Source: Sphingobacterium lactis (GTDB taxonomy: Bacteria; Bacteroidota; Bacteroidia; Sphingobacteriales; Sphingobacteriaceae). Taken from it: a stretch of DNA of 64,000 bases. The stretch is taken from positions 1,674,001 to 1,738,000 of the forward strand of contig NZ_CP049246.1 in the NCBI RefSeq assembly GCF_011046555.1, given 5' to 3'. The position numbers were made by a program, and so were the translations under genes. Below, piece by piece: positions 1,526 through 15,918 of the stretch. The notes beneath the pieces were generated by a model. That model did not search any database, was not told the DNA's origin, and saw nothing but the letters and a program-made list of their open reading frames with translations. Position 1 is the stretch's first letter. Each line of letters opens with the position of its first letter.

Positions 1526-3577
1526 ATGGATATGATATGTGTAAAATTTCTTGGTGTGGCGTGCCTTATTGGGCAGGTGGGCCTGGCATGTGCACAGACG
1601 GGAGCTGAAAACATCGATGAATTGATCGCTGGACAGGTAGGGGATGAAGCGGCTATGACGCTTGATTTTGTCGAACAGGCCGAACAGCTGGAGCAGCTGT
1701 TGCGCAAGCCCATTGATCTCAATTCTGGAACGGAAAAAGACTTTGCAGCCCTATTTTTCCTGAGCCCATACCAACAGTCCATGCTGCTGGCGCACCGGCA
1801 ACAGAGTGGACCCTTCCAGTCCGTCCTGGAATTGCAGGCCATTCCCGGATTCAATCTGGAAACTGTGGAGCGGATGATGCCCTATGTCCATGTAGGCCGT
1901 ATTTCTGACTTGACGTTTAAATCTTTGCCGGCAGTCCGTTCCTGGCGCGGTTCCTGGATGAGCACCTATGGCCGGCCCTTCCAACTGCAGCGTGGCTATC
2001 GAATTACCGACTCCGACCGATCCCGCTATTTGGGCACTGCAGATCGCTTGGTGAACCGTTTCCGGTTGCACTACCTCCAAACACTGTCCATGCACCTCAA
2101 TATGAAAAAGGATGCGGGAGAACCGTACTTCAGCGACCGTCAGCAATATGGTTTCGACCATTATTCCGGGAGCATCCAGATCCGTGATCCATTTGGGTTG
2201 GATAAGATGATCCTGGGCGATTATCAACTTCAATTCGGACAAGGGTTAGTTATGTGGAATGGCGGTATCTTTGGCAAGGGTGCAGCCGCAGCTCAGGTTA
2301 TGCAGCAGGCGGGAGGATTGCGCCCACATACCGGGCTTATGGAAACGGGCTTTCAGCGTGGCATTGCGGCGGAGTACAGCGTGCGCCATTTTCGTATAAC
2401 ACCTTTCGCATCCATCAATCGGCTCTCATCGACAGGAAAGATGAACAGAGGCATGGAGGTGGTGACCTCCATCAACAACTCCGGTTTACACCGAACACCA
2501 ACGGAGCTCAGGAATAGAAAAAATCTTAGCCAGTATGTGTATGGAGCCAATATGACCTATCAAAAAAGCAATTTTGCCATGGGTGGAACCTATGTAATTA
2601 CGCAGTTCAATCGGTATCTCAAGTTGAATAATCAGGCCTATAGCCGATACCGTTTCGAAGGGCATGTCCTTCAGAATATGGGTTTGCATTACCAATATAC
2701 CTGGCGCAATCTGCTTTTCTTTGGCGAGTCCGCACTAAGTTTCCCTGGGGGCATGGCCCATAACCACGGCATGCTTGCCGGCTTGGGCCCCAAACTGTCC
2801 GCCTCTTTTAGCTTCCGCGATTACCAAAGGAACTACCGGCATTTCTTTGCTCGGTCTTTTCAGGATCAGTCCACCCTGGGAAATGAGCGTGGCCTCCATT
2901 TTACCCTGGTCTACCACCCCACCAGGAAATTGGAATGGGCCAGTTCGGTCGATCTTATGGCTTTCCCGTGGTTGAAATTCCGAACGCGCGAACCAAGCCG
3001 TGCGCTACAGGTACAGTCGCAATGGAGCAATATATGGTACAAAAAGGGTCACCTGCGCCTGCGTTACCAATACCGCTATTTCCAGGAGAATTACCCAGCG
3101 GTACTCAACGTGCAAGAAGGCATTGCCGACGTCGCCCGGCAACAGTTGCGGCTGCAGTTTCAATATGCCGTGCATCCTCGCTGGCAGATCGGCAATGCTG
3201 TAGAAGGCAAACTTTTCCAGAAGACCGGACATGAAGAGGATATTGGCTTTATGGTCCTGCAGGATCTCGCCTGGAAGGACTTGCCTAAATCCGTTTCTGG
3301 AAATTTGAGATTGGCCTATTTCCGGGTAGATAGTTACGAAGCCCGCATCTTTACCTTCGAAAGAGATGTACTCTATGGGTTTGGATTCCCGTCCTTCTAT
3401 CGACATGGATTCCGCTTCTACCTGAATAAAAAAATTAAACTTTCCAAAGGTCTGGACGCATGGGCGCGCTACGCCCATACCACCTATTTCGGGGAAGAAA
3501 AGATCGGTTCGGGACTCACAGAGATCCGTGGTAACCAACGGAGTGATTTTAAGATTCAGGTGCGCTATTCGTGGTAA
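1526..3577 (+). CDS. Secreted helix-hairpin-helix (ComEA-like) protein with outer-membrane beta-barrel
   Basis: The 683-residue protein starts with a signal peptide (residues 1 to about 24, ending ACAQ). Residues about 60-124 form a tandem helix-hairpin-helix region like ComEA: IDLNSGTEKDF, then GPFQSVLELQAIPGF. ComEA proteins bind double-stranded DNA during transformation. The remaining 550 or so residues are rich in aromatic, Arg and Gly residues in alternating patterns (for example GDYQLQFGQGLVMWNGG) and end in FKIQVRYSW, the pattern of an outer-membrane beta-barrel. The stop codon overlaps the comEC start in TAATG, so the two are probably translationally coupled. Family knowledge: HhH proteins of this size occur in Bacteroidota. 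A role in bringing DNA across the outer membrane is inference. An ATG two codons in (MICVKF) is another possible start. Confidence 0.75.
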   Translation: MDMICVKFLGVACLIGQVGLACAQTGAENIDELIAGQVGDEAAMTLDFVEQAEQLEQLLRKPIDLNSGTEKDFAALFFLSPYQQSMLLAHRQQSGPFQSVLELQAIPGFNLETVERMMPYVHVGRISDLTFKSLPAVRSWRGSWMSTYGRPFQLQRGYRITDSDRSRYLGTADRLVNRFRLHYLQTLSMHLNMKKDAGEPYFSDRQQYGFDHYSGSIQIRDPFGLDKMILGDYQLQFGQGLVMWNGGIFGKGAAAAQVMQQAGGLRPHTGLMETGFQRGIAAEYSVRHFRITPFASINRLSSTGKMNRGMEVVTSINNSGLHRTPTELRNRKNLSQYVYGANMTYQKSNFAMGGTYVITQFNRYLKLNNQAYSRYRFEGHVLQNMGLHYQYTWRNLLFFGESALSFPGGMAHNHGMLAGLGPKLSASFSFRDYQRNYRHFFARSFQDQSTLGNERGLHFTLVYHPTRKLEWASSVDLMAFPWLKFRTREPSRALQVQSQWSNIWYKKGHLRLRYQYRYFQENYPAVLNVQEGIADVARQQLRLQFQYAVHPRWQIGNAVEGKLFQKTGHEEDIGFMVLQDLAWKDLPKSVSGNLRLAYFRVDSYEARIFTFERDVLYGFGFPSFYRHGFRFYLNKKIKLSKGLDAWARYAHTTYFGEEKIGSGLTEIRGNQRSDFKIQVRYSW

Positions 3578-5616
3578 TGGAAAACCTGAAGAATAGCTCT
3601 TTTCAACATGTACCATTCCTGCGGATCACCCTCTTTTTTGGACTCGGCATCACGACGGCATCCGTAGGTGAAGAAGGGTGTGAGTTGCTGCCCGTTGTAG
3701 GGATCTTCCTGCTGGTTTTATCTCTGTTTATTTGGCTATTATTTTATCTTGGTTATCAGCGGGTTGGCACAATGCTCATGTATGCCACCTTATTTATAGC
3801 AGGGTTTTATCATTATGCAATGTATGTAAAGCATCCTGATTTTCAGATCGATCGCCCACAAACCTTTGTGGCGCGGATTACCGAAGAACCTCGTGTGTCT
3901 GAAGGTGCTGTCCGCACCTCCCTGCGTTTGATGGCCTGGAAAAAGGAAACCGACTGGTTGCCAACGGAATTGCCAATTGTCGCAAGTTTCTGGCGGAATG
4001 ATAGCTTAGCGACCCTACAGCTAGGGGATACCATTGCATTCCGAGGGGCTATAAAGATGTTGGAACCCCCGCTCAATCCCGAGCAGTTTGATTATGCCAG
4101 GTACTTAAAGAGCAAAGGGATTTTTTATGATGCATTCGTTCCACTGGATGCGGTAAAGGTGCTGGGCAGTGCTGAAAAAGGAAAGAGGGTGTTGCATACA
4201 ATGCGAATGTCCCTACACCGAAAATTCAGTACCTATATTCCGGACAGCGAAGCGCATCAGATTGCTGCTGCCATTGGTTTTGGCTACCGGGCAAACCTCT
4301 CGCAGGACGTATTGGAAGCCTTTGCCAATACAGGGACCATCCATGTGCTCAGTGTTTCCGGGTTTCATGTCAGCTTGATGTTCCTGCTGGTGACGATGTT
4401 ATTCAAACCGATGGACAGGATTCCGTATGGGCGTTCCTTTCGTTTTGTCCTTGTCCTGCTCCTTATTTGGCTCTATGCTGCAATCTGTGGTTTTGAACCT
4501 GCAGTACTGCGTGCAACGGTCATGTTCAGTATTTTCCTGATCGGTTATTGGCATACGCGAACGGTATTGTCGCTCAATACGTTGTTTCTATCCATGTTCA
4601 TTCTCATTGTGATCGATCCTTTTATGCTGTTCGATGTCGGATTTCAATTGTCCTATCTAGCCGTGCTGGGCATTTTGCTGTTCTATCCCATATTGCAGGC
4701 AATGTATCTGCCCAAGCGCCGGAAACTACAGCATCTGGTTAATCTCTGTTATGTATCCATTGCAGCGCAGCTGACCACCACAAGTTTGGCACTATTCTAT
4801 TTTCACCAGTTCCCCACATATTTCCTGCCCGCAAACCTGTTGCTGACCTTCCCCTCAACGGCCATTCTCTACCTGGGATTTTTCCTTATGCTATGTCCGG
4901 TTGATGTGCTTAACTCCTGGGTTGGCTATTTGCTGGAGAAATTGATCCTCTACAGTTTTCAGCTGTTGCAATGGATCGATTCACTGCCTTTTGCCAGTTT
5001 ACAGGGATTGCCATCCTCTTTGTGGGCCCTGCTGTTGAGTTATGGTGTTCTCCTGCTCCTCATACTGGCGATTCGTAGGCATGCTAAAGCAGCTTTAATG
5101 GTGGCAGGGGTACTGTTTATTGGTCTATTGCAAGCGCTGTTCTGGCAGCGTTGGCAGGAGCAGGGATTTCGTGGGGTAAAAATCTACCAAATGCATAAGC
5201 AGATCGCCATTGCCCTGATCGATCGAGGTGCCGTGACGCTGATCAGCACCTTGGATTCCCTGAACCATGCCCACCTGCGGTTTGCAGTCCATCCCGATCT
5301 TAAGCGGTATGCTGCATTGGAACATATCCAATTCGAACACCTGGTTGTGGATAGTACGGATTATTTTATTTCCTGGCAAGATACGTTCCACATACAGGTG
5401 AAGAACATGTCTGGACCAACGAATAGTAATGCAGATCTGACACTGGTCCGAAAAAATGTGAAAATCTCCCCAACCGATGCGCGTGGTCTTGTGATTTTTG
5501 ATGCTTCCAATTCTCAAACCTACTTGGATCAAGTACAGGTGGAATTGGCGGGAGGAAAGCTGCCCTATTATATTTTAAAGGATAATTTTGCGTATGTTTG
5601 GCGTTGGGAGTTATGA
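3577..5616 (+). CDS. comEC: ComEC/Rec2 family DNA-uptake channel, without metallo-beta-lactamase domain
   Basis: ComEC is the inner-membrane channel that moves single-stranded DNA into the cytoplasm during natural transformation. The N-terminus has several membrane helices followed by a soluble domain (about residues 85-200). The competence core begins near residue 235 and contains GTIHVLSVSGFHVSL, matching the family GTxHxLxxSGxH signature, followed by many membrane helices to about residue 520. The C-terminal 150 residues lack the HxHxDH motif of the beta-lactamase-like nuclease domain found in longer ComECs. The start is taken at the ATG sharing an A with the upstream stop (TAATG); a GTG two codons earlier is less likely. 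The end overlaps recQ. Length is 679 residues. Confidence 0.9.
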   Translation: MENLKNSSFQHVPFLRITLFFGLGITTASVGEEGCELLPVVGIFLLVLSLFIWLLFYLGYQRVGTMLMYATLFIAGFYHYAMYVKHPDFQIDRPQTFVARITEEPRVSEGAVRTSLRLMAWKKETDWLPTELPIVASFWRNDSLATLQLGDTIAFRGAIKMLEPPLNPEQFDYARYLKSKGIFYDAFVPLDAVKVLGSAEKGKRVLHTMRMSLHRKFSTYIPDSEAHQIAAAIGFGYRANLSQDVLEAFANTGTIHVLSVSGFHVSLMFLLVTMLFKPMDRIPYGRSFRFVLVLLLIWLYAAICGFEPAVLRATVMFSIFLIGYWHTRTVLSLNTLFLSMFILIVIDPFMLFDVGFQLSYLAVLGILLFYPILQAMYLPKRRKLQHLVNLCYVSIAAQLTTTSLALFYFHQFPTYFLPANLLLTFPSTAILYLGFFLMLCPVDVLNSWVGYLLEKLILYSFQLLQWIDSLPFASLQGLPSSLWALLLSYGVLLLLILAIRRHAKAALMVAGVLFIGLLQALFWQRWQEQGFRGVKIYQMHKQIAIALIDRGAVTLISTLDSLNHAHLRFAVHPDLKRYAALEHIQFEHLVVDSTDYFISWQDTFHIQVKNMSGPTNSNADLTLVRKNVKISPTDARGLVIFDASNSQTYLDQVQVELAGGKLPYYILKDNFAYVWRWEL

Positions 5617-7514
5617 TGGAAAAAACAAGTTTATCCATATTGAAAACATATTGGGGGTATGATCGATTCCGGCCTTTGCAGGAAGAGATTATCCATGATA
5701 TTCTATTGGGTAAAGATACCTTGGCCCTGATGCCCACGGGGGGTGGTAAGTCCTTGTGTTTTCAGGTTCCAGCCATGATGCAGGATGGAATCTGCATTGT
5801 GGTGAGCCCATTGATTGCCCTGATGAAGGACCAGGTGGAGAACCTCCGTAAGCGGAACATCAAGGCCATCGCCATTTATTCGGGTATGTCCCATCGGGAG
5901 GTGGACATTGCTTTGGATAACTGCATTTTTGGGGACATCAAATTCCTATACCTTGCACCCGAACGACTGTATAATGACATGGTGCAGGAGCGTATCAAGC
6001 ACATGCCGGTCAACCTCTTCGCCATTGATGAGGCCCATTGTATTTCCCAATGGGGTTACGACTTTCGACCTTCTTATCTTGAATTGAGCCATCTGCGGTC
6101 CCTAAAGCCCAATGTGCCCTTTCTTGCCCTGACAGCAACCGCCACGCCACGTGTGGTGACCGATATACAGGAAAAATTGGGATTCAGATCCGAGAATGTG
6201 CTATCCAAGAGTTTCCGTCGGGAAAATTTGGCCTATATGGTCCTGCCGGAAGAAAATAAGATGGGCCGCATGCTGAAGGTGATCACCAAGATCGGCGGGA
6301 CAGGAATAGTGTATGTCCGCAATAGACGGGAAACCCAAGAAGTTGCTCGATACCTGCTAAATCATGGGATATCTGCCGATTTCTACCACGCCGGTCTGGA
6401 TATGCAGACCCGTTCCAAGAAACAGGATGCTTGGACAAATAACCAGACCCGTGTGATCGTGGCGACCAATGCCTTTGGGATGGGTATCGATAAAGCGGAG
6501 GTCCGCTTTGTGATCCACCTGGATATTCCCGATTTCCTGGAGGCCTATTATCAGGAGGCGGGACGTGCAGGCCGTGATGGCAAGAAGGCCTATCCTGTAT
6601 TGCTCTACCAACAGGCGGATCGAGACGAACTGTGGGAGAGCATTGACCAGAATTTTCCGGATTTTCAATATATCCAACAGGTTTACCACCATGTCTGCAA
6701 TTATTTTCAGATCGCCTACGGCGCCGGACAGGGCATGACCTATGACTTCGATGTCGTGGACTTCGCGAAGAAGTATAAACTGGAGGTCATCAAGTGCCTC
6801 AGTGCATTCAAGTTTCTGGAAAGGGATAAATGGTTGTCGCTCAGCGAATCCGTTTATTTACCGTCTAGGTTTAAGTTTGAGGTGGACTTCCAGGAACTGT
6901 ATAAATTTCAGGTGCAGAGCGTACATTTTGACCCCTTGATAAAAGCCATTCTGCGCATTTACGGCGGTGTCTTTGATTTCTATGTGGCCATCAATGAATT
7001 CGAATTGGCAAAGAAGATCGGCAAGCCCTCTGAGGAGGTGGTCCGGATGTTGAACCTGATGCAGAAACAGGAAATCGCTTCCTATATCGCAAAAACCGAT
7101 TCCCCGCAGATGCAGTTCCTACAAGCCCGTGTGGATTACAAGAACCTGTACATCGATACCCAGTTCATTGCCGTGCGCAAAAGCCATAAAGAAGAACAGG
7201 TAAAAGCCATTTATGGCTACTTGGATGAAAAAGTATGCCGCAGTTTAGCCCTCCAGCGCTATTTCGGTGAGGAGGTGGAAGAACCTTGTGGTGCATGTGA
7301 CCTCTGTTTGGTGAAAGCGCATAAAGCAGGTCTCGATGAATCCATCGGCAAGAAGATCCAATACCTGTTATTGGATTCTCCACGTACCCTGCACGCACTT
7401 ATCGACGCCATCGATATGGGGAGTGAGGATGATCGATTGCGCGTTTTCCGCCAATTACTGGATGCAGGAACCATTCTCCTGAAAGAGGAGACATACCATT
7501 GGAATGCATTGTAG
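5613..7514 (+). CDS. recQ: ATP-dependent DNA helicase RecQ
   Basis: RecQ is a 3'-5' superfamily 2 helicase that unwinds recombination and stalled-fork structures. Walker A PTGGGKS lies at residues 41-47. Motif II is IDEAHCISQWGYDFRPSY, with the RecQ-specific aromatic-rich loop after it. The second RecA-like domain ends with QEAGRAGRDG, and the zinc-binding RQC part shows CGACDLC near residue 560. Length is 633 residues, close to E. coli RecQ (about 610); no clear HRDC domain is visible at the C-terminus. Two ATGs (5613, 5616) overlap or abut the comEC stop, so translation is probably coupled. Its place behind comEC suggests handling of incoming or recombining DNA, which is inference. Confidence 0.95.
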   Translation: MMEKTSLSILKTYWGYDRFRPLQEEIIHDILLGKDTLALMPTGGGKSLCFQVPAMMQDGICIVVSPLIALMKDQVENLRKRNIKAIAIYSGMSHREVDIALDNCIFGDIKFLYLAPERLYNDMVQERIKHMPVNLFAIDEAHCISQWGYDFRPSYLELSHLRSLKPNVPFLALTATATPRVVTDIQEKLGFRSENVLSKSFRRENLAYMVLPEENKMGRMLKVITKIGGTGIVYVRNRRETQEVARYLLNHGISADFYHAGLDMQTRSKKQDAWTNNQTRVIVATNAFGMGIDKAEVRFVIHLDIPDFLEAYYQEAGRAGRDGKKAYPVLLYQQADRDELWESIDQNFPDFQYIQQVYHHVCNYFQIAYGAGQGMTYDFDVVDFAKKYKLEVIKCLSAFKFLERDKWLSLSESVYLPSRFKFEVDFQELYKFQVQSVHFDPLIKAILRIYGGVFDFYVAINEFELAKKIGKPSEEVVRMLNLMQKQEIASYIAKTDSPQMQFLQARVDYKNLYIDTQFIAVRKSHKEEQVKAIYGYLDEKVCRSLALQRYFGEEVEEPCGACDLCLVKAHKAGLDESIGKKIQYLLLDSPRTLHALIDAIDMGSEDDRLRVFRQLLDAGTILLKEETYHWNAL

Positions 7515-9958: not shown

Positions 9959-12900
9959 TTATTCCACGATTCGCAGCTGTATATTTCCTGACCGGGCATT
10001 GGTGGTCGGGTCGTACATGCCCTCGATCTGGGTTATCCCCGAATTGAATGCACCGATGTTATTGGCCTTCACTTCGTAGGTAAAGGTGCGCTTTCCTTTC
10101 GGAAGATAATCGAAGAAATAATTTGTGGAGGCATCCTTCAGTGTGAAGTAATATCCCTCGCGCCAATGGTAACCGGAGCTGCGGAATACCGGTTCTACGC
10201 CTGATGGACGGCTATCTTTCAGGTGGACATACTGCAGGTCCTCATCGTTGATGACCGTCAGGACAACCCTGATCTTTTCGCCTATCTTAGCCTCCTTGCT
10301 CTCCAACCATTCGCCCTTGCGTTCCACTTGGTAGACCTTGCTGACCTTCAAGCCTTTTGTCGATGCCTCCACCTGATCCAGGGGAAGGAAGAATTGATGG
10401 ATCAAACCACCATAAACCGTGCGATCGTTGTTGTTCTTAATCTCAATGTGGGTATCGGTCTGCAGTTCCTGTGGTGTAAAGGTTTTGGATGTCTGTCCCA
10501 ATATTACTGAATCCATCGCTACGGCTTGTCGATCGACCAAAACCTGGACATTGTTTTCCATTCGGAAGTCCTGCGGATTATTGGTCAATAGCAAGCTATA
10601 GATGGCATCTACGGTCATCCAGGTACTGCGCCAATAGTTCGCTTCCTTTTTATAGAAGATCCATTGGCTGATGGCATTGAGCTTGGTCGGATCGTACAGT
10701 TTATAGGCCTCCAGCAGATAACTGTGCAGGCTGATGTCGTTGTAGTGGTTGCTATTGGATTCCCAGTACATGCCACGGTTTTCATCGTAGATCACTTCCT
10801 GCATGATCCTGTTCTTGAGTTCATTGGCCTCCTTTCCAGCACCGAAGAGCTGGTTGACGATCCATGCCTTGGCGGCTATTCCCGCTGGACTACCAGCCGT
10901 GTGGAGTGGTGCCTTGGCTATTCGAGCCTGTAGCGTTTGCTTGGCCTTCGCCGGAACAGGAACTACGCCATGCCAGAAGTGACGTGCATAGAGGTAATCC
11001 AAAGCGATGGATGCTGATGCTTTCTCACCAAAAATGGCCGGGTCAGCGTCCAGGTTCTGGATCAGTTTTTTCATCGATCCCTGCATTTTTGAGCCAATGG
11101 AGCTTGGTTTTAACTGAAGTGCCTTTCCTGCAACTTCCAGAATGCGGATTGAGATAACTGTATTTGCACTTCCACCTTCAAACCATGGGAATGCTCCGTT
11201 ATCCAGTTGGGCTTTTTGCAGCTTGTTTTCCAATTGCTGTAGTTCGCTATGGATATTGCTGTTGAACAGCTCCGCCAAAGCAGCTAATTTCTTTTCATCG
11301 GCCTGCATGTCGCGGATCCAAGGCATCTCTTGTGCACTGAGCGAAGCCAATGCGCTGTTATCCGCTAAGCGCCCTTTTGTTTCCCTTTCGGTAATCGCTT
11401 TAAAATAATTCGCGATTGCTGGATATTCGGAACCGATGTATTCCACCATCTTCAATGCAAACCATCGGCTGGTTTGTTGCTCGGTGCAATCATACGGGTA
11501 ATTATTAAGGTAGTCCAATGCGGAAATAATTTCCAATATCGGATTGCTCTGTACCTGCACCTTTGCCGTGAGGTTTTCCTTGCCGGCAGATTCAAGGATT
11601 AGCTCTTGCTGCTGCTGCGGCTTGAGGGTGAGTTTTTGGGTTTCGGATATAAGGATTGAATTGTTCAAAACGGCCAATTCCTGCACTTCACCATCAGAAT
11701 AGCTATCTGAAGCGGCAACTATTTTTACCTGTACCGTTGGATAGCCAGCCGGTACCTTGATCTTCCAGGATACCGTTTGATTAGCACCCTGTTTCACGTC
11801 AAAGGATACGGATTCAGAATCGATAACAAAGTCTTTGGTTACCTCTGCATGATCAACGAGATTGATGAACGCTATCTTAGCCTGACCTTTTTGTTGTCCA
11901 TCGCTAAGGTTTTGGACCTGCGCCTTTAAAATCATTTCATCATTTTCGCGGAAATAACGCGGCAGGTTCGGTTGGACCATCAGTTGCTTCTGGGTCTGGG
12001 CATAGTGCATGGCCTCGCCAACTTCCAATTTTTTGCCGTGGGCAAATAATTGCAGTTTCCATTTGGTCAGTGCTTCCGGTGTCGTAAAATCGAAACTGAT
12101 AAGACCGTCCTTATCGGTGGTAAGATTGGGGTAAAAGAATGCGGTTTCCTTCAGATTTGTTCTCGGTACGACCTGATCAATTGCGCCGGATCCATCTTTT
12201 ATGGCCTCCTTTTCCTGCCGAAGAGGAGCGTCATGCAAGTCATCATATGCAGTAGGTTCGAAAGATGCAACCGATAGGCCGGCTACTTTTCCAGCCATGC
12301 CTATTACTGCAACTTCATTTAACACAGCATCGGATTCTATAGCGCTCGCGCTGTAGTCTACCCTAGAGAAACCGTGAATGATCGTCCTATTATAGTTTTC
12401 CCAATCCAAATTTCTCCATAAGCCATAGTTCATGAACATGGGAATGCGTGAACCTAACGGTGTCACCATCTGTATTGGATTAATGACCGCAATGGATTGT
12501 GGGTAATTGCTCCAGTAGAATAGGTCGACCAGCTCTCTTTTCGATTGATAATTATGCGGAAAGTCGGTCTCAAAGTAACCACGGATATAATTTACCTGGA
12601 ATTCGTCCAATGATGCATCATACATCGTAGCTAATACTTCAGCAGGAATGACTTTTCCGTCCTGGCGAATCTCAAAACTCCAGGTTTCCTGCGTTCCAGG
12701 AAGAATCTTGTCTCGAAAGGTTTTGGTCCTGATTTGCAATTTTTTCGATGCATCTGCAGCTGGAATCTGGAGGTCTATGTTTTCAGCCAAATTATTGACG
12801 ATCAACAAGGCGGATACGTTGAAATCCAGAGCGATATGTTCCCTGGTTACAGGAAAGGAATACTCGGACTTACCGTTCTGGAAGGGTAAAATCTGAATTT

Positions 12901-15730
12901 CTTCCTCAGAAAAACTATTTGAGGTGTATAGATACAGGTATTTCGCCTCTTTGACATCCGAATAAAAGGTGATTTTTGCTCGATCGCCCTCTTTATACTG
13001 TGTTTTATCAAAGTTAGCCACCAAGAAGTCCTTATCTGTGATTTTATGGGTTTCCGCGGCATACAGTTCCACGGTTCTTGTGGAGGTGACAGTATCCTTG
13101 CCCTGCATGCTGATCGCTTCCACAAGGTATGCGCCTCGATCGAAGAGTTCGGCATCCAACTTGACCAGGGATGTGTCGTTGGTATCAAAGGTGTAGCTTT
13201 TTACCAATGTCTTCTTGGGATCCTTTAACCTGGTATCGTCATAGATCAAAGGAAAATATTCCTTATAGGCTTTCTTATCCAAAATATGGAAATTAGCATC
13301 CTTAAATTGAAAGGTCTGCGGGGGCAAGGCCACTTCAGGTTCCTGGAATTTATAGATATTGACTTTCCCGGCAAATTTTAGGGGTTGGCCATTCTGGTTT
13401 TTGGTATCGATATGGAGTGTTGCCCATTTCTTTTCCTCCGCTCTATCCTCGGTCAAAATATTGATGCGCCATGGTTTTTCGTCAAACTGATAAAAGGCAA
13501 CAGCTTGTTGCATCTCTCCAGTTTGATTGACCACCTCTGCAGTTACCTGGATCGAGAACGACTTCAGCTTGGTCAGTGCTGTGTCGGTTAGGGGGATACG
13601 AATGTTGAATCTTCCATCCTCTGCAACGGTGACCGTACTGTCCTGCAATTGAAATTGCCTATATATGGATCCGTAGCTCGTGATATTTACCTTGTAGTTC
13701 ACGGTTGCTCCCGAGAGATTGACGCCTGAAAAAGTTTCGACCTTTCCCGAAAATACTGCCGTATCGGTTCGGGTATATGTTTCCTCGTTGGTATCAAAAA
13801 GGACTTTAAAAGTCGGTCTTTTGTATTCCTCTACACGGAAGAAGTGTGCATTGATCTGCTCCTTGCCCCGGTAGATTTCAATTCGCATGCCGCCGTTCAA
13901 GGTCAATTTTGGAATGTGCAGTTCGCCATGGATGGAACCGAAGCTGTTACTGGTTAGGGTAAGGGAATCAACATGCTGTCCATTTCCATCGACGAGTTTA
14001 GCCGTGATCTTCTGTCCTTCCAATACCTTTCCCGATAGAAAATCGCTAGTGTAAATGATCGATTTAAAATAGACGGTCTGACCAGGTCTATAGATTGCAC
14101 GGTCTGAAATTGTCCTAGCCCGGATATTTTCCTTGTCGTCTACATAATCCTGGAAATAGTTGTAACGGGCGGATTGCCTGTTCAATGGAACCAATTGTTT
14201 TTCGTCTTCGAGGTATAGTAAGAAATCACCGTTCGCGAAAGCGTCATCGCTTTCTTTTGGCTTAAAAATGAGCAGACCTTGCTTATTGGTCGTTGCTGTT
14301 TTTGACACCTGAATGGTTGAATCGGTGGTGTTGTGGAAGATTTGAATTTTCCGTTGGGCATAAGGCTGCCCATCGTTTCTGTTGATCAGCTGAACCAAAA
14401 GCGATTCATTGTCTTCTTTATCGGTCCGATTTTCTAGATAGCTGAATTGGTCGGTGATGATTATCGGATTTTTTGCCACGGTATGGAAAAGCCCATCATG
14501 GATAAAATCTTTATTATTGGAAACCAATACCATATAATTTCCAGCTTTTAGCGGATTTAGCTTATAAATGGTCTTATGTTCTTTGAAATCCTCCTCCCGG
14601 TCCAAATCGACCCGTTCCTCGTATGTAAGGGCAGCTGTTGTTGTTACCTTGCGGCTTGCGCTATCCTGTTCAAAGGTGAATTTCTGAAAGTTTTCGGGTG
14701 TATTGGTGATATTGTAGACACGGATGTACAAGTCTTTTGTATTCCTGAAATTGATAAAGAAGGGTACATATGTTTGCGTTGGTTGTTCATATTTGAACTC
14801 GACCCCCAAGGATGGCATCTTGATGATATTTTCTAAAAACTCTATATCTTTCAGCCATGGTGAATTTGCATAATCTTGTTTTGCTTGCTCCAGCATCGCT
14901 AGGGCTTCAACATATTTTTCCCTTGCGGCCAATAGCTCGGCAACCTTGCTAAGAAGAAAAGCATTAAAGTCACTTTTGTATGTTTCGACCTGTTGCAGCA
15001 GAGCCTTTTGTAGGTTATTTGATGGCTTCAACATTAGTTTTCGGTAAGCCAGATAAGCTTCAGCATTGGCATAACCTGCTGATCGATTCAGTGTACTGAT
15101 CTCATCAGCGAGCTGCTGAATCTTGGGCTCCGACTTTTTCCCCATATTCGGCAAGAAGTTGATGTATTGGAGACCGATCTGATGGAAAAGGGTTGGTGTC
15201 AAAGATTGATTCGTACTATCAGTAAGTAGATACTGCCAATTGGTAAGCCCCTCTTTCTTCAGCAGCTGTTTATTTTCCAATGCCTGTTGAAAAATGGAAT
15301 CGATGATTTTGTTCTTTGTAGAATCATTACCTGCAACAAACGGATGATCACTCTGACTTCTGAATCGTCTTTCACTGTTCAGAAACTCGGCATAAAAGAA
15401 TTGAAGCAGGCTCTTTACTACAGGTTTGGCGGTGCTGATTTCCTGTTGAAAATGCTGATCTATTTTTAGGAAAAATTGATCTTCCGTAACGTTAACCAGA
15501 AGCAACCTATTCTCTGCCAGAAAGGCCCGCAATACCATGGGGTCATTGCCAGTGCGCTTGGCATAGGCTTTTATGTCGCTTAGGATGGGTTTGGCCTCTT
15601 CGTAATTATGGATCGAGATTAACCTTTCCACTTCCTTCCATTTTTCCTGAATGGAGGGGTCGCCAGCATTTCCCTGGCCAAAAGAAAGAATAGGTAGTAG
15701 CATGCAGATCAAAATAAATAGCTGTTTCAT
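9959..15730 (-). CDS. Large alpha-2-macroglobulin family protein with thioester motif
   Basis: Bacterial alpha-2-macroglobulins are secreted or periplasmic protease traps. The start is at MKQLFILICMLLPILSFGQ, a clear signal peptide; six extra in-frame codons upstream are probably untranslated. Length is 1923 residues, longer than the E. coli YfhM type (about 1650). The N-terminal 300 residues are helical and Tyr/Leu-rich. MG-type beta domains follow, including the MG2 signature region RAIYRPGQTVYFKS. The variable bait-like stretch lies around residues 1040-1180. The thioester motif PYDCTEQ is intact (Cys1415), followed by a helical toroid domain and C-terminal beta domains. Near residue 1140 there is LNEVAVIGMAGK, reminiscent of the start of a TonB-type plug. 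No penicillin-binding protein 1C gene is adjacent, unlike many proteobacterial cases. Confidence 0.92.
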   Translation of the reverse strand: MKQLFILICMLLPILSFGQGNAGDPSIQEKWKEVERLISIHNYEEAKPILSDIKAYAKRTGNDPMVLRAFLAENRLLLVNVTEDQFFLKIDQHFQQEISTAKPVVKSLLQFFYAEFLNSERRFRSQSDHPFVAGNDSTKNKIIDSIFQQALENKQLLKKEGLTNWQYLLTDSTNQSLTPTLFHQIGLQYINFLPNMGKKSEPKIQQLADEISTLNRSAGYANAEAYLAYRKLMLKPSNNLQKALLQQVETYKSDFNAFLLSKVAELLAAREKYVEALAMLEQAKQDYANSPWLKDIEFLENIIKMPSLGVEFKYEQPTQTYVPFFINFRNTKDLYIRVYNITNTPENFQKFTFEQDSASRKVTTTAALTYEERVDLDREEDFKEHKTIYKLNPLKAGNYMVLVSNNKDFIHDGLFHTVAKNPIIITDQFSYLENRTDKEDNESLLVQLINRNDGQPYAQRKIQIFHNTTDSTIQVSKTATTNKQGLLIFKPKESDDAFANGDFLLYLEDEKQLVPLNRQSARYNYFQDYVDDKENIRARTISDRAIYRPGQTVYFKSIIYTSDFLSGKVLEGQKITAKLVDGNGQHVDSLTLTSNSFGSIHGELHIPKLTLNGGMRIEIYRGKEQINAHFFRVEEYKRPTFKVLFDTNEETYTRTDTAVFSGKVETFSGVNLSGATVNYKVNITSYGSIYRQFQLQDSTVTVAEDGRFNIRIPLTDTALTKLKSFSIQVTAEVVNQTGEMQQAVAFYQFDEKPWRINILTEDRAEEKKWATLHIDTKNQNGQPLKFAGKVNIYKFQEPEVALPPQTFQFKDANFHILDKKAYKEYFPLIYDDTRLKDPKKTLVKSYTFDTNDTSLVKLDAELFDRGAYLVEAISMQGKDTVTSTRTVELYAAETHKITDKDFLVANFDKTQYKEGDRAKITFYSDVKEAKYLYLYTSNSFSEEEIQILPFQNGKSEYSFPVTREHIALDFNVSALLIVNNLAENIDLQIPAADASKKLQIRTKTFRDKILPGTQETWSFEIRQDGKVIPAEVLATMYDASLDEFQVNYIRGYFETDFPHNYQSKRELVDLFYWSNYPQSIAVINPIQMVTPLGSRIPMFMNYGLWRNLDWENYNRTIIHGFSRVDYSASAIESDAVLNEVAVIGMAGKVAGLSVASFEPTAYDDLHDAPLRQEKEAIKDGSGAIDQVVPRTNLKETAFFYPNLTTDKDGLISFDFTTPEALTKWKLQLFAHGKKLEVGEAMHYAQTQKQLMVQPNLPRYFRENDEMILKAQVQNLSDGQQKGQAKIAFINLVDHAEVTKDFVIDSESVSFDVKQGANQTVSWKIKVPAGYPTVQVKIVAASDSYSDGEVQELAVLNNSILISETQKLTLKPQQQQELILESAGKENLTAKVQVQSNPILEIISALDYLNNYPYDCTEQQTSRWFALKMVEYIGSEYPAIANYFKAITERETKGRLADNSALASLSAQEMPWIRDMQADEKKLAALAELFNSNIHSELQQLENKLQKAQLDNGAFPWFEGGSANTVISIRILEVAGKALQLKPSSIGSKMQGSMKKLIQNLDADPAIFGEKASASIALDYLYARHFWHGVVPVPAKAKQTLQARIAKAPLHTAGSPAGIAAKAWIVNQLFGAGKEANELKNRIMQEVIYDENRGMYWESNSNHYNDISLHSYLLEAYKLYDPTKLNAISQWIFYKKEANYWRSTWMTVDAIYSLLLTNNPQDFRMENNVQVLVDRQAVAMDSVILGQTSKTFTPQELQTDTHIEIKNNNDRTVYGGLIHQFFLPLDQVEASTKGLKVSKVYQVERKGEWLESKEAKIGEKIRVVLTVINDEDLQYVHLKDSRPSGVEPVFRSSGYHWREGYYFTLKDASTNYFFDYLPKGKRTFTYEVKANNIGAFNSGITQIEGMYDPTTNARSGNIQLRIVE

Positions 15731-15918
15731 AACCTTGTGAATCATCAAAATTGAAATTTTCCCAAGTGATGCAATAATCGTTTGGTTTCCATAAAGCTAA
15801 GGAAAAAAACGCCTATTTTTTTTAAGGATACTTGATGGAGAGCTAATTAATTTTCATTTTTTTTAATGCTTTTAAGCGAGTTGATACAACAGAATTGATT
15901 CCTAAATGATATTTAGCA

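Follow-up and report, generated by a model that had tools for sequence, protein, structure and literature searches.

A protein encoded in the genomic segment analyzed here is strongly predicted, on the basis of structural models, to be an outer-membrane barrel that carries a ComEA-type helix-hairpin-helix (HhH) domain on its periplasmic side. Its gene is tightly coupled to comEC in several genera of the Sphingobacteriaceae type. We tentatively favor the reading that this protein serves DNA uptake as an outer-membrane channel docking on ComEA/ComEC, in genomes where a separate ComEA is also present. Passage of DNA across the outer membrane is stated to be unknown in the transformable Porphyromonas gingivalis (PMC11532111), which speaks for such a role, and no homologue of the customary outer-membrane uptake parts was identified in a Riemerella screen (PMC8459023). 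With its phylum-wide occurrence, its ComEA-type domain and, in one family, the translational coupling of its gene to comEC, the barrel offers a concrete candidate for the missing step at the outer membrane. Even as something other than a DNA channel, it would represent an outer-membrane family that is widespread, has not been described so far and carries an unusual docking domain.

Organization of the locus

The window, i.e., the whole stretch of 64,000 nucleotides that was analyzed, belongs to a genome assembled as a single contig of 4.03 Mb, and the closest named homologues are from Sphingobacterium. The three genes of interest are listed in Table 1, and the overlaps between them that had originally been read from the sequence are borne out by the coordinates. 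The ATG of comEC (3577-3579) shares one base with the stop codon TAA of the barrel gene (3575-3577), giving TAATG, and the ATG of recQ (5613-5615) and the comEC stop codon TGA (5614-5616) form a four-base overlap, ATGA. The gyrB gene is located directly upstream of the barrel gene. The comEC product matches the Competence domain with 200 bits and DUF4131 with 77 bits, and the domain search returned no match to Lactamase_B in this protein; the DUF4131-Competence profile has been reported for the majority of Bacteroidetes (PMC6299819). The recQ product scores 405 bits against TIGR00614, above the cut-off, and 492 bits against TIGR01389, below the cut-off of 640. Elsewhere in the window, the minus strand at 9959-15748 encodes a 1929-aa protein that resembles, as judged by eye only, an alpha-2-macroglobulin/MG2-type envelope protein.

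Table 1. Genes and protein features of the barrel-comEC-recQ locus, in window positions.
Feature	Position	Strand	Basis
HhH-barrel protein, 683 aa, C-terminus YSW	1526..3577	+	ORF, homologue family, AlphaFold2 model
Predicted signal peptide, about aa 1-24, putative cleavage site GLACA-Q	1526..1597	+	sequence and alignment
Acidic helical segment, aa 27-60	1604..1705	+	model helices 27-41 and 48-60
HHH_3 (ComEA-type) domain, aa 62-123, degenerate hairpins FFLS and PGFN	1709..1894	+	Pfam, structure match
Predicted outer-membrane beta-barrel, aa 139-683, about 24-26 strands	1940..3574	+	model, usher alignment
comEC, Competence and DUF4131 domains, without Lactamase_B	3577..5616	+	Pfam/NCBIfam matches
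recQ-type helicase	5613..7514	+	NCBIfam matches

Structure and family of the barrel protein

The AlphaFold2 model, built from a 71-sequence alignment, has a pLDDT of 89.9 and a pTM of 0.86 and shows 25 strand segments. For a barrel whose two termini lie in the periplasm, an even strand number is expected, and we therefore give the count as about 24-26. The FimD and PapC ushers align over residues 139-683 with a Z score of about 14 (360-374 residues, 3.8-5.5 A). AlgE and Wzi, which are polysaccharide-handling proteins, top the list of structural matches for the barrel, slightly above the ushers, with only partial coverage of the chain. The protein combines a predicted signal peptide, with Q24 nearly invariant in the family alignment, with a C-terminal aromatic residue (RYSW) of the kind typical for outer-membrane barrels and a barrel that is predicted to be closed, as judged from the usher alignment. 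The original prediction of an outer-membrane barrel is upheld by the AlphaFold2 model and by the full-length structural match to the 24-strand ushers. By strand number, the modeled barrel is wide enough to match these protein-passing ushers. The likeness to FimD and PapC is one of arrangement and not of demonstrated kinship, as identity is 8-12% and usher Pfam families are absent from the domain matches of all 71 family members.

The barrel itself is covered by neither a Pfam nor an NCBIfam model, and none of the solved structure chains match by sequence outside the HhH domain. A single-sequence search of the genome contigs gave no matches; the alignment-based search recovered the family, which counts no fewer than 561 related stretches among named genomes. 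Given how widespread the family is, its members are likely annotated as "helix-hairpin-helix domain-containing protein". In the open literature we found no paper describing the protein, no published mutant of its gene and no experiment on it. In the alignment, conservation of the long inter-strand loops equals or exceeds that of the strands themselves (e.g., 0.72 for residues 481-490 and 0.73 for residues 602-625, compared with about 0.5 for strands). Such loop conservation is unusual for an outer-membrane protein; it points to a specific binding partner or ligand and speaks against a general porin.

The HhH domain and its relation to ComEA

The HHH_3 match in the barrel protein is borderline (27.4 bits against a cut-off of 27), but 66 of the 71 homologues match as well, the best with an E-value of 2e-11, and the domain is therefore considered real. 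A profile of the N-terminal part matches ComEA structures at 8e-9 and 1e-6. Modeled alone, the domain reaches a pLDDT of 84.5, and the model of residues 26-136 superposes on Geobacillus ComEA (8dss) with a Z score of 11.8 and 1.1 A over 64 residues. By sequence and predicted fold, the domain is a true ComEA homologue. Other structural matches include Tex, TEFM, KIF22, PsbU and GspK. The last two, from photosystem II and type II secretion, respectively, resemble the present case in having an HhH-type fold within a membrane-associated complex and differ in belonging to unrelated systems and in having no barrel; their HhH-type domains serve protein contact.

HhH hairpins that contain glycines contact the DNA backbone. 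In the barrel family, the hairpin glycines are absent at residues 78, 80 and 110 in all 71 homologues and present at residue 108 in 61 of them, and a canonical hairpin pair was found in none of the 71. The mature N-terminal part (residues 26-124) carries a net charge of -10 in this protein and a median of -11 in the family, to which the HhH domain alone contributes a median of -3. The loss of hairpin glycines together with the acidic character of the region makes the role of a DNA receptor unlikely, and docking of another protein would fit these residues better. Of the proposed DNA-binding ComEA-type domain, the ComEA type is supported and the receptor function is not. Compared with ComEA itself (PF12836, 8dss), the domain has the same HHH_3 fold and the same predicted placement on the periplasmic side, but it is fused to a barrel, has lost its hairpin glycines and is acidic.

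We identified a separate ComEA in the same genome (G000:C1:3164338-3165246, minus strand), contrary to the original reading of an import line that lacks one. It has 303 aa, is anchored by a membrane segment at the N-terminus and contains three HhH units; a counterpart was found in 40 of 41 relatives. Its second unit has an intact GIGP hairpin, and the glycines of the GIG motif are kept in 18/18 and 17/18 homologues. At its start region the gene adjoins, and at its end it overlaps, an adenine phosphoribosyltransferase gene of the same orientation. In Riemerella anatipestifer, RA0C_RS02645 is described as having three HhH domains and is essential for transformation (PMC8459023). From that description it is probably the counterpart of the 303-aa ComEA; it shares with the barrel protein an origin in Bacteroidota, an HhH domain and an envelope location, and differs in its three HhH domains and in that no barrel is reported. 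In Porphyromonas gingivalis, PGN_0421 has a ComEA domain at residues 94-165 and its deletion abolishes competence (PMC11532111); its strong ComEA E-value favors a separate ComEA over a barrel-type protein.

Conservation of the genomic neighborhood

We inspected 38 named or Sphingobacteriaceae-type loci, one of which ends at a contig end and is left out of the counts. Among the remaining 37, comEC lies directly downstream of the barrel gene in 35, both exceptions being Parapedobacter. The coupled arrangement occurs in Sphingobacterium, Pedobacter, Parapedobacter soli, Arcticibacter, Desertivirga, Pelobium and Daejeonella, so the tight coupling originally noted in a single locus extends beyond the genus. 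In nearly all 35 coupled loci comEC starts between -12 and +9 bases from the barrel stop codon (exceptions are Pedobacter sp. BS3, with +45, and Desertivirga, which has no ATG candidate). This spacing is kept even though the barrels are only 31-52% identical to that of the window, which speaks for a role in DNA uptake. Outside the Sphingobacteriaceae-type group comEC is adjacent to the barrel gene in 0 of 42 loci, which speaks against it. Only Sphingobacterium, Parapedobacter soli and a few MAGs have recQ as the third gene; elsewhere it is unlinked, and its proposed place as a dedicated third part of an import line has to be given up.

A different neighbor is found outside the Sphingobacteriaceae, where a protein of about 275 aa of outer-membrane type is encoded immediately upstream of the barrel in 37 of 42 loci (e.g., L042:7208-8008). 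It shows weak matches only, to the FadL or PorP/SprF families. In many Sphingobacteriaceae loci the order is small protein, barrel, comEC. A profile search of the genome of the window for the small protein, run without a positive control, gave no match, and gyrB occupies its place there.

Distribution, loss and decay

In a set of 218 genomes of the phylum, the barrel was scored as present at E < 1e-20. By our count from the resulting table, 165 of the 218 have the barrel; comEC is present in 215, and some match to the ComEA profile is present in 215, although outside the class many of these matches are weak and may represent other HhH proteins. Barrel matches between about 1e-4 and 1e-18 were set aside: those re-examined were HhH-only matches, to ComEA or to frames the size of Tex, and the rest were assumed to be alike. 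Because comEC is near-universal, the observation that the barrel implies comEC is uninformative.

Fifty of the 215 comEC-positive genomes have no barrel. Among them are every one of the 22 genomes sampled from one family (f20) and, within the family of the window, all six from one genus (g19); both groups keep comEC and ComEA, and these absences argue against a role in DNA uptake. The refuting conditions set out with the original prediction come out divided: a barrel is predicted and the gene order does reach beyond the genus, yet many relatives with comEC and ComEA have no barrel. Conversely, four lineages, namely G001, G539, G413 and the three f51 genomes, have neither ComEA nor the barrel and are entirely or nearly without comEC (G413, a reduced genome, retains one comEC match below the cut-off), which argues for uptake. 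Two draft genomes (G288 and G431) are without comEC and keep ComEA and the barrel. The joint absence of barrel, comEC and ComEA is compatible with an accessory function in DNA uptake, and is weak evidence because the events are few and two of the genes are adjacent in G001, where their joint loss can be a single event. G001 (L149, L150), which belongs to the same genus as the window, is without comEC, the barrel and the ComEA gene, which is not linked to them, and has a recQ fragment behind ATP synthase genes.

In some Sphingobacterium (L151, L152, L153, L040, L026) the barrel gene is broken: its end is missing in G013, frameshifts are present in G007 and G002, L040 has an in-frame stop and L026 a late stop, any of which may reflect sequencing error. 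The comEC frames remain open in G013, G007 and L040 despite the broken barrel, which suggests that selection on comEC does not depend on the presence of the barrel and counts against the uptake reading.

Predicted role and alternative explanations

In the reading that we favor, transforming DNA would enter by passing through the barrel in the outer membrane. The degenerate HhH domain would not grip DNA; it would act as a docking module, with either ComEC or, in the separate membrane-anchored ComEA, the degenerate HhH units as its probable partner. ComEA, with its intact GIGP hairpin, would act as the actual periplasmic DNA receptor, from which DNA would be handed over to ComEC, the inner-membrane channel. 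RecQ would be a repair helicase of general function, added to the transcript in a single lineage. Besides the evidence from spacing and loss, this role is favored by the true ComEA homology of the HhH domain and by a predicted strand number that matches protein-passing ushers. A more specific version, in which the HhH-barrel is the DNA entry channel of a Bacteroidota route without a type IV pilus secretin and its HhH domain docks ComEA beneath the pore, seems to us rather doubtful. Other outer-membrane proteins, RA0C_RS04915 and RS04920, are essential in Riemerella transformation (PMC8459023), which also weighs against the uptake role. RA0C_RS04915, which has a carboxypeptidase-regulatory domain, is similar to the barrel protein as a predicted outer-membrane component of Bacteroidota DNA uptake, but it has another N-terminal domain and no HhH domain is reported for it.

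It is almost as probable that the protein is an outer-membrane channel or exporter for cargo other than DNA, in which the HhH domain docks a periplasmic partner, the linkage to comEC is a lineage-specific operon without shared function and the ancestral partner is the small upstream outer-membrane-type protein. The frequency of that small protein outside the Sphingobacteriaceae and in many loci inside the group agrees with this, as do the degenerate hairpins in an acidic region, the structural resemblance of the HhH domain to PsbU and GspK, the leading position of AlgE and Wzi among the partially covering barrel matches, and the many comEC-positive genomes that have no barrel. However, an overlap or near-overlap with comEC that is kept in 35 of 37 diverged loci from several genera is hard to explain without selection, and the domain is specifically of the ComEA type.

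The same coupling across genera makes it improbable that three unrelated housekeeping and envelope genes came together here by chance, even though the recQ and gyrB neighbors differ between genera and recQ lies behind ATP synthase genes in G001. Least probable of all, in our estimate, is the original version, in which the barrel's own HhH domain takes over from ComEA as the periplasmic DNA receptor: membership in HHH_3 and the close superposition on ComEA would suit it, but three hairpin glycines are missing throughout the family, the domain and linker are acidic, and the genome encodes a separate ComEA whose GIGP hairpin is intact.
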